From Metabacillus flavus (lineage in GTDB: Bacteria > Bacillota > Bacilli > Bacillales > Bacillaceae): a stretch of 64,000 nt of DNA. Shown here piece after piece: positions 13,944 to 37,096 of this stretch (the stretch's first letter is position 1; each line of letters starts with the position of its first letter). The stretch is from the NCBI RefSeq assembly GCF_018283675.1, contig NZ_JAGVRK010000001.1, forward strand, positions 186,001 to 250,000, given 5' to 3'. The position numbers and the translations under genes are program-made. The notes below the pieces were generated by a model that ran no database searches, was not told the origin of the DNA, and worked only from the letters and a program-made list of their open reading frames with translations.

Positions 13944-14303
13944 ATGAATAAGGACCACCTTGATGCATTGTGCAAAGCTCAGAAAGGCACTTTCCATAAT
14001 TACCAGCCGGATTGGCAGGCAGACCGCTATCATGTTGGCGGAAAAATGTTTGCTATGCTTGGAAGCGATGCAAAGGGAAAGCCGATTATCACATTAAAGT
14101 GCGATCCAGTTCGGGCTGAAGAATTAAGGGAAGAATATGAGGGCATTATACCGGGCTATTACATGAACAAAACCCACTGGATTTCCATCTGCCTTGATGC
14201 CTCTTTGCCGAATGATTTTGCCGAAAGTCTAATCGAACATTCCTATCAATTGGTTTTTGACAAGCTGCCGAAGAAAGTCCAAAGAGAAATTGTTTCTGAG
14301 TGA
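13944..14303 (+). CDS. MmcQ/YjbR-family protein
   Basis: 119-aa cytosolic protein of the MmcQ/YjbR (double-wing DNA-binding-like) family. Typical features are the N-terminal CKAQKGTFHNYQPDWQ region, FAMLGSDAKGKPIITLKCDP, the GYYMNKTHWISICLD strand-turn motif, and the C-terminal helix LIEHSYQLVFDKLPKK. AAGGAGG precedes ATG 13944. It stands alone after the repeat element. Function is unknown in most species; DNA binding is suggested only by the fold. Confidence 0.85.
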   Translation: MNKDHLDALCKAQKGTFHNYQPDWQADRYHVGGKMFAMLGSDAKGKPIITLKCDPVRAEELREEYEGIIPGYYMNKTHWISICLDASLPNDFAESLIEHSYQLVFDKLPKKVQREIVSE

Positions 14304-14419
14304 GGGCGGCATTCTCTTATCGTTTTTCTATTGATTTCCTACCAAACACAAAAACAGGATAAAACGCCTCACTCTTCCGCAATCTAAAGATGGACGAAAA
14401 ACGGATAGGGTGATACGTC

Positions 14420-15832
14420 ATGCAAAACGATTGGTTTTCGGTTATCCCATTTTTAATTGCCATTCCCATTGCCATCAAAACGAAGCAGGTGCTGCCGGGC
14501 CTGTTTGCCGGATTGCTCGCTGGGTCTTATTTATTGCAGCCTTCTTTAGTCGGAGGCCTCACGAAAATGATTGAAATCCTCGTGAAGGGAATCATTGATC
14601 CGGGGAACATCAAAATTTTTATGTTTTTGTATGCCTTTACGGGCTTAATCGGAATGATTAAAATAGCAGGTGGTATTCGCGGGTTCGTAGAAGCGGCATC
14701 TGCAAAGGTTCAGACAAAGAAACAAGCACTTTTTCTCACTTACATATCGACGATCGGCACCTTTGCGGCCCCGAGCTTCCGGTTCGTCACCATTGCTCCG
14801 ATTATGAGAGCGCTATTGAAAAAGGTCAAAATGTCGACACAGGAATTGGGGTTTGTTATTGAAACAACGGCTACTCCGATTATTGTCCTCATTCCAATTG
14901 CGACTGCGTTTGTCGGATACATGACCTCACTCATCGACCTTGCCCTTGAAAACGAAAAAATCAAGGCGGACTCCTATCAATTGTTTCTCCAAAGCATCCC
15001 ATTTAATTTCTTTTCCTATGTCCTGATTTTAGTCGGAATTTATTTGAGTTTTTTCCATCATTCAAAATCGACAGAGGAGAGCGATCCGGAAGAGATCGGC
15101 GATGGATCCGGTGAAGACGACTGGCACAATTGTGATCCATCGGTAGGAAAGGATCTCCCGGAGCGGCCATGGAATTTATTTGTACCGCTTATCCTCGTCA
15201 TTGGCCTGACCTTTCTGTTCACATGGTGGGATGGACACCAAAAAGGAGGGGGCTTCTTTACAGCCTTTATTAAAGCAGACGTCCTCACCGCTATGCTGAC
15301 GGCGCTGCTTGTCGCATTGATTTTAACTTTCCTTTTTTTCAGATTTCAGAAAATCAAAACAGGAGAACTGCTGAATAACTTTATCCTTGGCGGAAATGAT
15401 TTAATGTCTGTCATTGTGCTGCTTTCTTTCGTTTGGGGGCTTTCGTCTGCGAGTGAGGAGCTTGGGTTTTCCCGTTTTGTTACGAGCCATTCACAATGGA
15501 TTCCCTCATCCCTGCTGGTTCCGATTCTCTTTATGTTTGGAGCGGCGGTATCCTATTTCATTGGCTCCGCCTGGGGAACATGGGGAATTCTCATGCCGCT
15601 CGGCGTTTCCATTGCGATTGCCTCTGATCTGTCGCTGCCTCTGGTCATTGGGACAGTGTTTGCGAGCGGAACATTTGGAGCATTTGCCTCTCCGTTAAGC
15701 GACGATACCAATACGATTGCACGGATTCTTAATTTATCGGTGCTGAAGTATGCAAGATATAAGCTGAAGCCGGCTCTCATTGCGGCCGGGATAACGGTGG
15801 TTTTGTACGGAGCGGTTTCATTTTTTTTGTAA
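14420..15832 (+). CDS. NhaC-family Na+/H+ antiporter-like permease
   Basis: 470-aa polytopic membrane protein. Around 11 hydrophobic segments are visible. It has the NhaC-type VLPGLFAGLLAG start, internal TIGTFAAPSFRFVTIAPIM and a C-terminal GSAWGTWGILMPLGV and FGAFASPLSDDTNTIA, conserved in NhaC/YheL-type carriers. A hydrophilic, acidic loop is found at about residues 215-245 (STEESDPEEIGDGSGEDD). Likely exchanges Na+ (or an organic anion, as in some NhaC paralogues) for protons. Monocistronic; the following 400 bp are repeats. Confidence 0.85.
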   Translation: MQNDWFSVIPFLIAIPIAIKTKQVLPGLFAGLLAGSYLLQPSLVGGLTKMIEILVKGIIDPGNIKIFMFLYAFTGLIGMIKIAGGIRGFVEAASAKVQTKKQALFLTYISTIGTFAAPSFRFVTIAPIMRALLKKVKMSTQELGFVIETTATPIIVLIPIATAFVGYMTSLIDLALENEKIKADSYQLFLQSIPFNFFSYVLILVGIYLSFFHHSKSTEESDPEEIGDGSGEDDWHNCDPSVGKDLPERPWNLFVPLILVIGLTFLFTWWDGHQKGGGFFTAFIKADVLTAMLTALLVALILTFLFFRFQKIKTGELLNNFILGGNDLMSVIVLLSFVWGLSSASEELGFSRFVTSHSQWIPSSLLVPILFMFGAAVSYFIGSAWGTWGILMPLGVSIAIASDLSLPLVIGTVFASGTFGAFASPLSDDTNTIARILNLSVLKYARYKLKPALIAAGITVVLYGAVSFFL

Positions 15833-33886: not shown

Positions 33887-34000
33887 AAGGAGAGCCAGGG
33901 AGCAGCCGCTTCCTGGTATTTTTTGTTTGCTTTCGTCGTGAGCGGGTATAGTTGTACTAAGCAAATGAGACCTTCAAAAATGGCTTGGGAGGTGTGAACT

Positions 34001-34156
34001 GTGGCTCAGGACGTGTTATGTGATGTGGGCAACTGTGTCTATAATGAAAAAGGCAGAAAGTGCGGCGCTGCACAAATCTACGTAGTCAGTCATAAGGGAT
34101 CGAAAGCCGAAACCAGTCATGAAACAGATTGCCAAACATTTAAGCCTGAAAAATAA
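34001..34156 (+). CDS. Small DUF1540 protein (51 aa)
   Basis: Too short for a standard ORF scan. GTG 34001 follows GGGAGGTG and the frame ends at TAA 34154-34156. The protein MAQDVLCDVGNCVYNEKGRKCG, AAQIYVVSH, and ETDCQTFKPEK contains the four-cysteine pattern (C7, C12, C21, C44) of the DUF1540 family, small proteins found in spore formers that probably bind a metal. A terminator follows directly. Function unknown. Confidence 0.8.
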   Translation: MAQDVLCDVGNCVYNEKGRKCGAAQIYVVSHKGSKAETSHETDCQTFKPEK

Positions 34157-34168
34157 CGACAATTAGAA

Positions 34169-34200
34169 GGACAGCCTTTTTTAGGGGCTGTCTTTTTTTT
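34169..34200 (+). terminator. Terminator of the DUF1540 gene
   Basis: Stem AGGACAGCC/GGGCTGTCTTT with T-rich loop, followed by eight T. Confidence 0.85.
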
Positions 34201-34204
34201 GAAG

Positions 34205-34387
34205 GCTATGTTAAAGCAAGGTGTTGATTTTACACACCTGTTGATTGGAGTGGAAGGCTTGAGACTCCTGCGGGAGCAGCGGGACAGGTGAGACCCCGCA
34301 GGCGCTAAGCGGCGAGGAGGCTCAAGCAGCCCGCCCCGCGGAAAGCGAAAGCCTGCAACGGAAATCAACAGCCAAGTTTAACAGAGC
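34205..34387 (+). repeat. Dispersed repeat, family 1, copy 3
   Basis: Ends GCTATGTTAAA and TTTAACAGAGC, same orientation as the other copies. The core is nearly identical to copy 1. It separates the DUF1540 gene from the gas vesicle genes. Confidence 0.85.
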
Positions 34388-34505
34388 TTTTTTGAAAAGG
34401 TTTCCGCCGAGCGGAAGCCTTTATTGCGTTTTTAAATGAATTCATAAAAATGAGCATTCAGGTAAATCTAACAAAAACAGGCAGAAATGAAAGGAATGGG
34501 AACAC

Positions 34506-34763
34506 TTGAAAAACACGCTTGAAGCCATTGAACAGTTTTTTAGCGAATATCTTACGTCCCCTCATAAGATTCCTTCTGTTGAACCGGATGATGAGGGATT
34601 CCGCGCATTGGTCGAAATCATTGAAGAAAAAGAGTATATGAGAAAGTATGCGCGGGATGAGATGGTGGGAGTGTACGATGTGAAATTAAACAGCCAAAAC
34701 GAGGTCATCTCGTATTCGCGAAAATACTTGAAGCACCGTGGAGAGACGGGCCAATGGGATTGA
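34506..34763 (+). CDS. gvpO: Gas vesicle protein GvpO family (GvpR of B. megaterium)
   Basis: 85-aa accessory protein and the first gene of the gas vesicle cluster. The C-terminal half (EIIEEKEYMRKYARDEMVGVYDVKLNSQN, in parts, then EVISYSRKYLKHR) is the core of the GvpO family, which includes B. megaterium GvpR. TTG 34506 follows AAAGGA by 11 bp. It overlaps gvpF/L by 10 bp. Its role is in assembly; exact function is not known. GvpN, which normally follows GvpR in B. megaterium, is missing. Confidence 0.85.
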   Translation: MKNTLEAIEQFFSEYLTSPHKIPSVEPDDEGFRALVEIIEEKEYMRKYARDEMVGVYDVKLNSQNEVISYSRKYLKHRGETGQWD

Positions 34764-35491
34764 CTTCTGATGCAGGACTGTACGTTTTTTGCATTGCCGC
34801 AAGGCCGGACTGTGAAGTGGACAGGAGAATTTATTTTGAGGGAATGGACCGTGAATTGCTGATTATCCCGTATAAGGATCTGTTCCTGGCAGCCGCGCAG
34901 GTTCCGTTGCTGTTAAGACCATCGAAAGAAAATCTGCTTCTGCATCAAAAGGTCATCACATCCTTTATGGATGGCAGCGAGGCTGTCTTTCCGTTCAGCT
35001 TCGGGCACATTGTACATTCTTTGAAAGAGGCAGAAGGTCTGCTTAAGCGTCTTTATCCCGAGCTTCAGGGGATTCTACCATCCCTTAAAGGAAGAGTAGA
35101 GGTCGGTCTGAAGGTGATTGGGAAAAAAGATTGGCTGGCGCAGGAATTGGATAAAAAAGTGAAGCCTGCTAAAAGCACGCTTTATAAAGACCGGATTAAA
35201 CAGGGAGAGCTTGCTGAACGTTTTTTTCTTTCTTTAAGAAAGCAATTTAACGAGAGCATTCATCAAAAGCTTCATGACGCTGCGGATGATTCCAGGCAGA
35301 ATGACATTTTGACAGAAACGATGCTGCTGAACGGATCGTATCTCATTAGAAGAGAGCAGGAGGATTCATTTGATGAACTTGTTTCAGAGCTGTACGAAAC
35401 ATTCAAGGACCAGGCTGATTTTGTTTATACGGGACCATGGCCGCCTTATAACTTCATTAATATTCATTTGAGAGCAGAGAAGAGCTCATGA
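34754..35491 (+). CDS. gvpF: Gas vesicle protein GvpF/GvpL
   Basis: 245-aa GvpF/L-family protein that binds GvpA and starts vesicle assembly. The family pattern is seen in GLYVFCIAA at the start, VPFSFGHI (here FPFSFGHIVHS), KGRVEVGLKVI in the middle and TGPWPPYNFINI near the end. It overlaps gvpO by 10 bp and the gvpG start by 4 bp (ATGA), so the operon is translationally coupled. Gas vesicle clusters usually carry two F/L paralogues; only one is here. Confidence 0.92.
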   Translation: MGLTSDAGLYVFCIAARPDCEVDRRIYFEGMDRELLIIPYKDLFLAAAQVPLLLRPSKENLLLHQKVITSFMDGSEAVFPFSFGHIVHSLKEAEGLLKRLYPELQGILPSLKGRVEVGLKVIGKKDWLAQELDKKVKPAKSTLYKDRIKQGELAERFFLSLRKQFNESIHQKLHDAADDSRQNDILTETMLLNGSYLIRREQEDSFDELVSELYETFKDQADFVYTGPWPPYNFINIHLRAEKSS

Positions 35492-35745
35492 TGCCTGTCC
35501 TGTTATTGCCGCTGAAGCTGTTCCTGCTAGCTGCTGAAAAAGTAAAGGAAGAAGCAGATAAGCAACTGTATGACGTTGGTATTATTCAGAAAAACCTGCT
35601 GATGCTTGAGCTCAGGCATGAAAAAAATGAAATTCATGAAGATGAGTACAGGCGGCAATATGAAGAATGGATCAGAAGATATGAATGCGCAAAAGACATG
35701 GAAAGACGACAGTGGAGCAAGCTGCTGGATGATGAGTCTGTGTAA
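35488..35745 (+). CDS. gvpG: Gas vesicle protein GvpG
   Basis: 85-aa helical accessory protein. LLLPLKLFLLAAEKVKEEADKQLYD (split as one amphipathic helix) at the start and LMLELRHEKNEIHEDEYRRQYEEW match GvpG, whose helices contact GvpF/L. The ATG 35488 overlaps the TGA of gvpF/L. No membrane segment. Confidence 0.9.
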   Translation: MMPVLLLPLKLFLLAAEKVKEEADKQLYDVGIIQKNLLMLELRHEKNEIHEDEYRRQYEEWIRRYECAKDMERRQWSKLLDDESV

Positions 35746-35759
35746 GGGAGGTAAGGGGC

Positions 35760-36041
35760 GTGCTGTCTGAACAAACGAGTTCAATAGTCGATGTACTGGA
35801 AAGAATTCTTGATAAAGGCGTCGTCATCGCTGGGGATATCCGGATTAACCTGGCGGATGTAGAGCTTTTGACCATAAAAATCCGTCTGATTGTGGCTTCT
35901 GTCGATAAAGCGAAGGAAATCGGACTGGATTGGTGGGAAAGAGATCCTTATTTAAGTTCAAAGGCACACCCTATTGAAGAACGGCCAAAAGGAGAGCGTA
36001 CCGGCCTGCTTGATGCACTTGATTTGAAAAGATTAATTTAA
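35760..36041 (+). CDS. gvpJ: Gas vesicle protein GvpJ (A-family minor shell/accessory)
   Basis: 93-aa GvpA-family protein of the J type: SIVDVLERILDKGVVIAGDIRI, NLADVELLTIKIRLIVASVDKA and EIGLDWWERDPYLSS, a tail diagnostic of GvpJ of B. megaterium. GTG 35760 has GGGAGG 8 bp upstream. GvpJ is thought to nucleate the vesicle end. Next gene follows by 15 bp. Confidence 0.88.
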   Translation: MLSEQTSSIVDVLERILDKGVVIAGDIRINLADVELLTIKIRLIVASVDKAKEIGLDWWERDPYLSSKAHPIEERPKGERTGLLDALDLKRLI

Positions 36042-36056
36042 AGGGAGGCAGTCCAT

Positions 36057-36440
36057 ATGGATGACGATTCTCGGGAATCCTATAGACGGGATTCCATTCT
36101 GGAAACGCTTGTGATTACAGCCAATCGTTACGATTTTGAGCTGGATTTGATTTTAACTGTGGATGGCAAGGCGGTGACCGGGGGTCTTATTTCGGCTTCC
36201 GATTACTTAGAGGGATTAGGCCATTTATTTGAGCAGCGTGCCGATGAGCATTCGGCCAAATTGAGTGAGCGTTTTTACGAAGCAAGCAAAGGGGCGGGAG
36301 ACCATGGGACGGCTGCGTTCATTCATTTGAAAAATGTATACATCGAAGGGGAAAAAGCGGCCGTTTCTGCATTTTGGAGAGGCAGGCTTGATCAGGTAAG
36401 CGGATTTGTCATTGGAAAGCCCGTTAGGAGAACACAGTAA
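36057..36440 (+). CDS. gvpU: Gas vesicle accessory protein GvpU-like
   Basis: 127-aa soluble protein with no signal. [59 protein letters not shown] and [16 protein letters not shown] follow the B. megaterium GvpU pattern as I recall it. GvpT, which normally separates gvpJ and gvpU, is absent. GGGAGG precedes ATG 36057. GvpU has been connected with gas vesicle clustering in the cell. Confidence 0.75.
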
Positions 36441-36460
36441 AAAATAAGGAGGGGGTAAAG

Positions 36461-36742
36461 ATGATGCTTGAAAAATGCAGGGATGGATCGAGCCTTGTAG
36501 AAGTCGTGGATCGCATATTGGATAAAGGAATTGTCATCGATGTATTTGCGCGAATTTCGGTTTTGGGGATTGAATTAATTACAGTGGAGGCAAGGATTGT
36601 CGTTTCAAGTATTGAGACGTGGCTGCGCTATGCTGATGCTGTTGATCTGCTGAAAAGTACTGAGGATGTTCATGATCCCAATAATGGACAATCATACCGG
36701 GAGCCTAAGGACCTTTTAGACAACTTATTATTCCAAATTTAA
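36461..36742 (+). CDS. gvpA: Gas vesicle structural protein GvpA-like
   Basis: 93-aa shell protein candidate. [40 protein letters not shown] (as consecutive short parts) and [11 protein letters not shown] form the conserved GvpA helix-beta-beta-helix core. The C-terminal tail (about 25 residues, acidic) is longer and different from standard GvpA. It is placed last, whereas gvpA is usually first. ATG 36461 follows GGAGGGG; ATG 36464 is an equal alternative. If functional it is the only major shell protein in the cluster. Confidence 0.85.
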
Positions 36743-36772
36743 AAACGAGAGCCGGAAGCCCTCGTTTTTTTC
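36741..36772. terminator. Terminator of the gas vesicle operon
   Basis: Stem AAAACGAG/CTCGTTTT followed by T; also acts for the opposite gene. Confidence 0.8.
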
Positions 36773-36946
36773 CTATTCACCGTTTTTAGTTTTTATGCTT
36801 TGATCAATGGTGCCTGCTGCGTAATGGTGGCCAATTTGTTCGTGGGTCACTTCAAGACCAGTTGTTGTATGTTCCTTTTCCTTTTCGGCCGGATCGAATG
36901 ATTTGCCTGCTACCTCTTCTGCCATTTCGGTTAGTTTGGTGCTCAA
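36773..36946 (-). CDS. Small YozQ-like (DUF4025) protein
   Basis: 57-aa hydrophilic protein. TTG 36946 has AAAGGAG nine bp upstream, so the product begins MSTKLTEMAEEVAGKSFDP; the longer ATG frame would include the ribosome binding site. It continues TTGLEVTHEQIGHHYAAGTIDQ, resembling the YozQ/DUF4025 small protein family of Bacillus. Function unknown. Convergent with the gas vesicle operon. Confidence 0.75.
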   Translation of the reverse strand: MSTKLTEMAEEVAGKSFDPAEKEKEHTTTGLEVTHEQIGHHYAAGTIDQSIKTKNGE

Positions 36947-37096
36947 GCTGAATCTCTCCTTTCGATGTGCATGCATCCTTTTGATGCACCTACTTGTCCA
37001 TTCCCGATTTCATCTATTCTTACACAGTTTTATTTCTTTGAAGGGACAAGTTGTGTATAATCCGAGTGAAGTGATTAATGGAAGGACGGTGTCAGG

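Follow-up and report, generated by a model that had tools for sequence, protein, structure and literature searches.

The genome of Metabacillus flavus carries a second, diverged gas vesicle (gvp) operon of six genes, in addition to a canonical gvp cluster on the same contig. These six genes lie in what is here called the window, the whole stretch of 64,000 nucleotides that was analysed, which is C1:186001-250000 of a 4.03 Mb genome assembled in two contigs and 99.99% complete. The most probable reading of the operon, to which we give a probability of about 0.6 from sequence comparison, is that it is an alternative module for the shell, its chaperones, and vesicle clustering, one that would use the L, S, K, and N proteins of the canonical cluster in trans. 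It is called the satellite here because a canonical cluster holding N, L, S, and K is present in the same genome.

At 34506-36742, six co-directional open reading frames follow one another in the order gvpR/O-F-G-J-U-A, all of them intact (Table 1). The R and F frames overlap by 10 bp and the F and G frames by 4 bp; the remaining gaps are 14, 15, and 20 bp. Each of the six families is backed by a curated model above its curated cut-off, R marginally so. Pfam gives no match to U2, which the NCBIfam GvpU model recognises, and A2 also matches PF00741 at 51.7 bits (cut-off 25). The TTG start of gvpR2 is supported by the relatives, which start at this point as well, Metabacillus mangrovi with GTG, M. 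idriensis and Fictibacillus with ATG; gvpR2 is 80-99% identical to the R of four other satellites. The C-terminal tail of J2 is shorter than that of most canonical J copies with which it was aligned.

Here, then, a shell protein of the GvpA type stands in one run with accessory proteins of the O/R (just), F/L, G, J, and U families, as in a gvp gene cluster. No N, K, S, L, or T gene is found at the locus, and with L, S, K, and N not encoded there it is not a complete, self-sufficient cluster. A preliminary description of this DNA had named the same gene families, had placed gvpA last, and had pointed to the overlaps, and each of these observations holds, the identity of R only just.

Table 1. 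The six genes of the satellite and the element upstream of them (positions in the window)
Feature	Position	Strand	Basis
Conserved, promoter-like element ATTMATAAAAA-N10-GGWAAATCT, not sigma-70 type	34440..34469	+	Upstream of gvpR in satellites
gvpR2 (GvpO/R family), TTG start	34506..34763	+	PF05800, 25.9 bits, cut-off 25 (only just over)
gvpF2 (GvpF/L family)	34754..35491	+	PF06386 (GvpL_GvpF), 156 bits
gvpG2	35488..35745	+	PF05120, 52 bits, cut-off 30.6
gvpJ2	35760..36041	+	PF00741 (Gas_vesicle), 63 bits
gvpU2	36057..36440	+	NCBIfam GvpU NF041667, 110 bits, cut-off 70
gvpA2, alternative shell protein	36461..36742	+	NF006874 (GvpA, PRK09371), 104.8 bits, cut-off 100

Searching the whole genome with PF00741 delivers five GvpA-family proteins, of which the window holds two and C1:3114778-3118886 the other three. 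The latter lie in a canonical cluster at C1:3113230-3119679, on the minus strand, whose order (Q-A-R-N-F-G-L-S-K-J-T-U) is like that of B. megaterium. Genome-wide counts are three for GvpF/L, one for GvpK, and one for GvpN over the cut-off, and every GvpN, GvpK, GvpF/L, and GvpA-family protein beyond the window's own falls within C1:3113230-3119679. In this cluster Q (110 bits, cut-off 100), A, R, G (76 bits, cut-off 30.6), K, N, F, L, and U are supported by models, and A, S, and J by the A family. T is named by its position; it has a YtxH domain (PF12732) and scores only 19.7 bits against the GvpT model (cut-off 80). Near the canonical cluster, at 14290-14924 of locus L006, a 42-base unit is repeated in tandem about 15 times, with 94% matches.

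The genes that the preliminary description had reported as missing (GvpN, GvpK, GvpS, and a second GvpF/L) are indeed missing from the locus, but not from the genome, where N, L, S, and K sit in the canonical cluster. That description had suggested from their absence that the set may build a very small shell or something other than a buoyant vesicle. The inference to a self-contained set fails, because the search of the rest of the genome for gvpN, gvpK, gvpS, and gvpL that it had itself proposed found them. A standalone minimal system, as the default reading, was rejected on the finding of the canonical cluster. A partial gvp locus should not be read as the whole system of the organism.

Published work on B. 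megaterium offers a division of labor against which the satellite can be set. In the passages of PMC11445434 on which this account draws, chaperoning of the shell protein is assigned to F, perhaps together with G; the shell protein depends on S, K, and J for its contact with L, the proposed seeding step; N elongates vesicles and contacts the shell protein directly in an assay; and clustering of vesicles is attributed to U. The passages used from PMC11223475 report that L, S, K, and J are essential, that an N knock-out (N being assigned to elongation) showed no vesicles, that R, T, and U are dispensable and that omitting all three narrows the vesicles, and that the clustering role of U could not be confirmed.

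Under the preferred reading, the satellite would supply a shell protein (A2) and a minor shell protein (J2), with F2 and G2 acting as their own chaperones, R2 as a modulator, and U2 as a clustering factor. Seeding by L, S, and K, and elongation by the ATPase N, would be provided in trans from the canonical cluster. The canonical N would then have to accept A2, since N is reported to contact the shell protein directly (PMC11445434). The predicted product is gas vesicles with a shell of pure A2 or of mixed A1/A2, altered in shape, strength, or packing, and the satellite would be controlled differently from the canonical set. With the exception of J, the genes that are kept and those that are missing appear to follow the split between chaperone functions and seeding or elongation functions in those published passages. 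J is counted there as a seeding gene, yet it is kept in five of the six satellites, which speaks against this reading.

Satellites of this lineage were found in six species: M. flavus itself, Bacillus sp. SJS (G003), G004, M. mangrovi (G002), M. idriensis (G051), and Fictibacillus sp. FJAT-27399. All six have F2 in one clade, A in last place, no N, and the conserved upstream element. A canonical cluster with GvpN is co-resident in every one of these genomes (none of the six is without it), which argues for the use of its products. GvpK and GvpN are present in all six species of the window's genus, the satellite in four of them. This absence from two species, with the absence of J2 from M. mangrovi, indicates that the satellite is dispensable, and this counts against the preferred reading. 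In a sample of 80 genomes from the family, GvpA-family proteins and GvpK occur in exactly the same 17, none having GvpA without GvpK.

In the order sample, R2-type GvpR (182-191 bits) appears in 2 of 397 genomes, those of the window and of M. idriensis; the other R matches reach at most 110 bits, and 110 of the 397 have any R match. In the family of Fictibacillus sp. FJAT-27399, R2-type GvpR occurs in one of 34 genomes, that strain itself. In the class sample, an F2-type protein (496 bits) occurs in one of 398 genomes, the window's own, other F matches scoring 257 bits or less. A species collection, of which the best 80 of 147 GvpR-encoding stretches were kept, holds four satellites among those 80. 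Among the papers searched, none joins "gas vesicle" and "Metabacillus", and none, as judged by titles and the openings of abstracts, describes this satellite, which is no proof of novelty.

The synteny comparison that the preliminary description had called for finds the same six-gene order, R-F-G-J-U-A, in SJS and G004, but different sets elsewhere: nine genes, R-F-G-L-S-K-J-U-A, in M. idriensis and Fictibacillus, and five, R-F-G-U-A, in M. mangrovi. In G005, which lacks the satellite, the flanks seen in the window lie 60 bp apart, as against 2.8 kb in the window (33922 to 36741). In M. mangrovi the satellite is on a different contig (C28, about 4 kb downstream of glmS) from those flanks (C24). 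Thus, either the satellite has moved, or it was gained more than once, or the region was rearranged. Carriage by plasmid or phage was considered and rejected: F2 matched 28 plasmid records, with identity below 60% among the matches listed (10 of 28), and a phage search with A2 gave no match. The window has a glmS ribozyme at 1067-1235 (Rfam RF00234, 124 bits). Just upstream of the satellite, at 34190-34400, lies a dispersed repeat of about 200 bp that is 83-93% identical, among the matches listed, to many copies in all six species of the genus; it is absent at this place in G004 and SJS, and it has no Rfam match at the gathering threshold.

The history of the satellite is best read from F and L. 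In a tree of F, the six satellite F2 proteins form one clade (100/100) apart from 90 other F rows, on a branch of some 1.9 changes per column, which the midpoint root divides into 1.5 and 0.37; its length may in part reflect fast evolution. Within that clade Fictibacillus, a member of another family, joins M. idriensis (99/84), a grouping that points to horizontal transfer. Duplicate contigs (L067, L068, L069, and L071) were dropped before the F tree, the L tree, and the A comparison, as were matches with less than 75% coverage or with stops.

The L-S-K genes of the two nine-gene satellites have a different origin, for by sequence comparison they are an import from a canonical cluster. Their L and S share 87-98% identity with the canonical counterparts in the M. 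idriensis group, and in the tree of L both satellite L proteins fall inside a canonical clade (98/94). Starting in the gap ahead of L and running through K, the DNA of these satellites matches the canonical cluster of M. idriensis at 78-98% per 60 bases; the match falls off in the G/L gap and in the K/J gap, to about 50% in the latter, and is 49-78% on either side of L-S-K. BLAST joins L-S-K and part of J as one piece over 1.6 kb, at 85% (M. idriensis) and 88% (Fictibacillus). A single import common to both satellites has a p-AU of 0.163 and is thus not rejected. Because both edges of the import coincide with gene boundaries, we favor a history in which L-S-K was inserted into a satellite that had none before. 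A history in which an older L-S-K was replaced in the nine-gene satellites and lost in the window's genus would also fit. Simple deletion of L-S-K from a nine-gene ancestor is set back by the import, but might still hold with an ancestral copy replaced in one branch and lost in the other. It may therefore be that the six genes represent the older condition and not a cut-down one, and the earlier account of the B. megaterium order with N, L, S, K, and T cut out misstates the history of a set whose F2 is a separate, diverged clade and whose L-S-K, where present, was imported.

The shell protein A2 matches the solved B. megaterium shell (PDB 7r1c) at 1.5e-25. Six of its residues (V13, S49, I51, E52, D59, and D62) are found in all six A2 proteins and are missing from every one of the 146-147 other A copies from Bacillales in the comparison; of those copies, two of 146 have G9 and three of 147 have L35. 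More widely, E52 is not unique to A2, being present in the Anabaena shell protein (8gbs). The cryo-EM study, in the passages used (PMC9994262), has Val35 and Ile37 touching at the seam where monomer addition is thought to occur and residues 51-61 of helix 2 adjoining GvpC, and its Anabaena docking model has Glu52 and Glu59 binding GvpC. As a pointer from this analogy, position 35 of A2 would be a seam contact, and positions 52 and 59 would belong to the outer helix, to which GvpC binds in the Anabaena model. Directed evolution is reported to have delivered S9G-R31L-R85L as its best GvpB variant (PMC11264329), and shell variants of the A2 type might be usable for acoustic reporters.

The satellite also has a private upstream element. 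ATTMATAAAAA-N10-GGWAAATCTRAC stands upstream of gvpR in all six satellites, the pattern having been derived from these same sequences, and it is absent from the other loci compared, including the canonical clusters of the genus. The genome of the window has one copy of the pattern and its reversed control none. The element is kept even though the synonymous sites of the M. flavus and M. idriensis satellites are mostly saturated (dS is undefined for five of the six genes). Its second half may resemble the -10 elements of sigma-B or sigma-F promoters. A sigma-70 promoter was rejected for the satellite, no sigma-70-type site being found in 34000-37000, where shuffles gave a mean of 4.0.

Selection on the six genes is purifying. 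Pooled dN/dS, by the method of Nei and Gojobori and with dS above 1 in some pairs, is 0.111 between M. flavus and SJS (six genes; 95% bootstrap 0.075-0.160), 0.114 between M. flavus and G004, 0.105 between M. flavus and M. mangrovi (five genes), and 0.152 between the M. idriensis and Fictibacillus satellites. The satellite frames used are intact in all six species. Gene by gene, all values are below 0.25: 0.00-0.02 for A (M. flavus with SJS and with G004), 0.18 for F, and 0.24 for U (interval 0.09-0.65), with gvpR2 at 0.02-0.16 in the pairs with M. flavus. For the canonical counterparts, four pairs yield 0.024-0.042, canonical S of M. mangrovi being left out of the pooled values. The satellite is thus about fourfold higher, so that constraint on it is weaker than on the canonical cluster, another point against the preferred reading. 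As against plain decay, these values and the intact frames agree with the earlier statement that the set is under selection and not decaying.

Purifying selection and the A2 signature count for the preferred reading. A rival view is that the satellite is the remnant of a complete second cluster losing genes stepwise, from nine to six to five. We consider such decay unlikely. The three gene contents are indeed nested, dN/dS is above the canonical values (for F and U between close species in particular), two species of the genus have no satellite, and the truncated second locus of G072 shows that decay of this kind occurs. However, satellite frames are intact in all six species, pooled dN/dS is far below 1, with A2 at the low end between close species, and in the nine-gene form L-S-K was imported and is no leftover.

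The earlier interpretation, by which a minimal set would act autonomously to form a very small shell or a structure without buoyancy, seems to us quite improbable. The strong divergence of the satellites, the selection on them, and their separate shell protein and upstream element would suit it. Against it, each of the six satellite genomes also has a canonical cluster, and work on B. megaterium reports that L, S, K, and J are essential and that the N knock-out showed no vesicles (PMC11223475). Least probable of all is that A2, J2, or U2 poisons, caps, or clusters canonical vesicles, limiting or reshaping them without a shell of its own. The lack of L, S, K, and N from the satellite would be expected of such a regulator, the changes in A2 include the seam and the outer helix, omission of R, T, and U together narrows vesicles (PMC11223475), and U is said to cluster them (PMC11445434), though PMC11223475 did not confirm this. 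Yet a full F2-G2 chaperone pair is kept with A2, which suggests that A2 is made in quantity, and two satellites carry L-S-K as if to build. In M. idriensis and Fictibacillus this shell shares its operon with L, S, and K of canonical type, which is likewise a point for the preferred reading, trans use of canonical proteins, but what it shows is a shared operon and not trans use.

A wider generalization is offered tentatively, as one that may well prove wrong. Here, gvp operons would consist of an exchangeable engine (L-S-K and N) and a module for shell, chaperones, and clustering (A, F, G, R, and U). The satellite would be a free-standing, long-kept shell module on a promoter of alternative-sigma type, reusing the resident engine to make vesicles of a second kind when the cell is in a different state, and L-S-K would have moved as a unit into satellites. 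The matter bears on how gas vesicles are seeded and on which helper proteins recognize the shell protein. A natural module without L, S, K, and N, together with natural transplants of L-S-K, provides ready-made swap experiments.

Known systems resemble the satellite in part. The gvpAPQBRNFGLSKJTU cluster of Bacillus (Priestia) megaterium shares its six families and the relative order R-F-G-J-U, whereas the satellite has no N, L, S, K, T, P, or Q, has A last, and has an F in a separate, strongly diverged clade. In Halobacterium salinarum, as reported in PMC9501494, one cell has two gvp (vac) regions that are related but expressed differently; the second set of M. flavus has no L, S, K, or N genes. 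In genus g49, a second cluster A-R-F-G-L-S-K-J (L155 of G240 and L161 of G312) is N-less like the satellite, and the GvpN gene of these genomes stands beside another, canonical-type R; G411 also has two R. In contrast to the satellite, this cluster keeps L-S-K, has A first and no U that was found, and has its F outside the satellite clade.

Several other loci are of note in their own right. Clusters without GvpN were seen in L062 (G013), L129 (Virgibacillus sp. YIM 98842), and L138 (Jeotgalibacillus terrae); none of these three genomes, drafts in part, has GvpN over the cut-off, and GvpN may thus have been lost repeatedly. The broken second gvp locus of G072 (L051 10488-11042) has a truncated A, the end of K, and J, the intervening genes being missing. 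GvpU-family proteins of 67-84 bits (NCBIfam cut-off 70) are present in 21 of 21 g4 genomes (L052, L053, and L054 being among the g3/g4 loci), and because 19 of the 21 have no GvpA-family protein the GvpU label may mislead there; weaker matches, at 64-70 bits, occur in six of seven g3 genomes. In G001, a member of the window's genus, the canonical genes are in two places (L056 and L057), the others being separated by about 330 kb from U and a weak T match.
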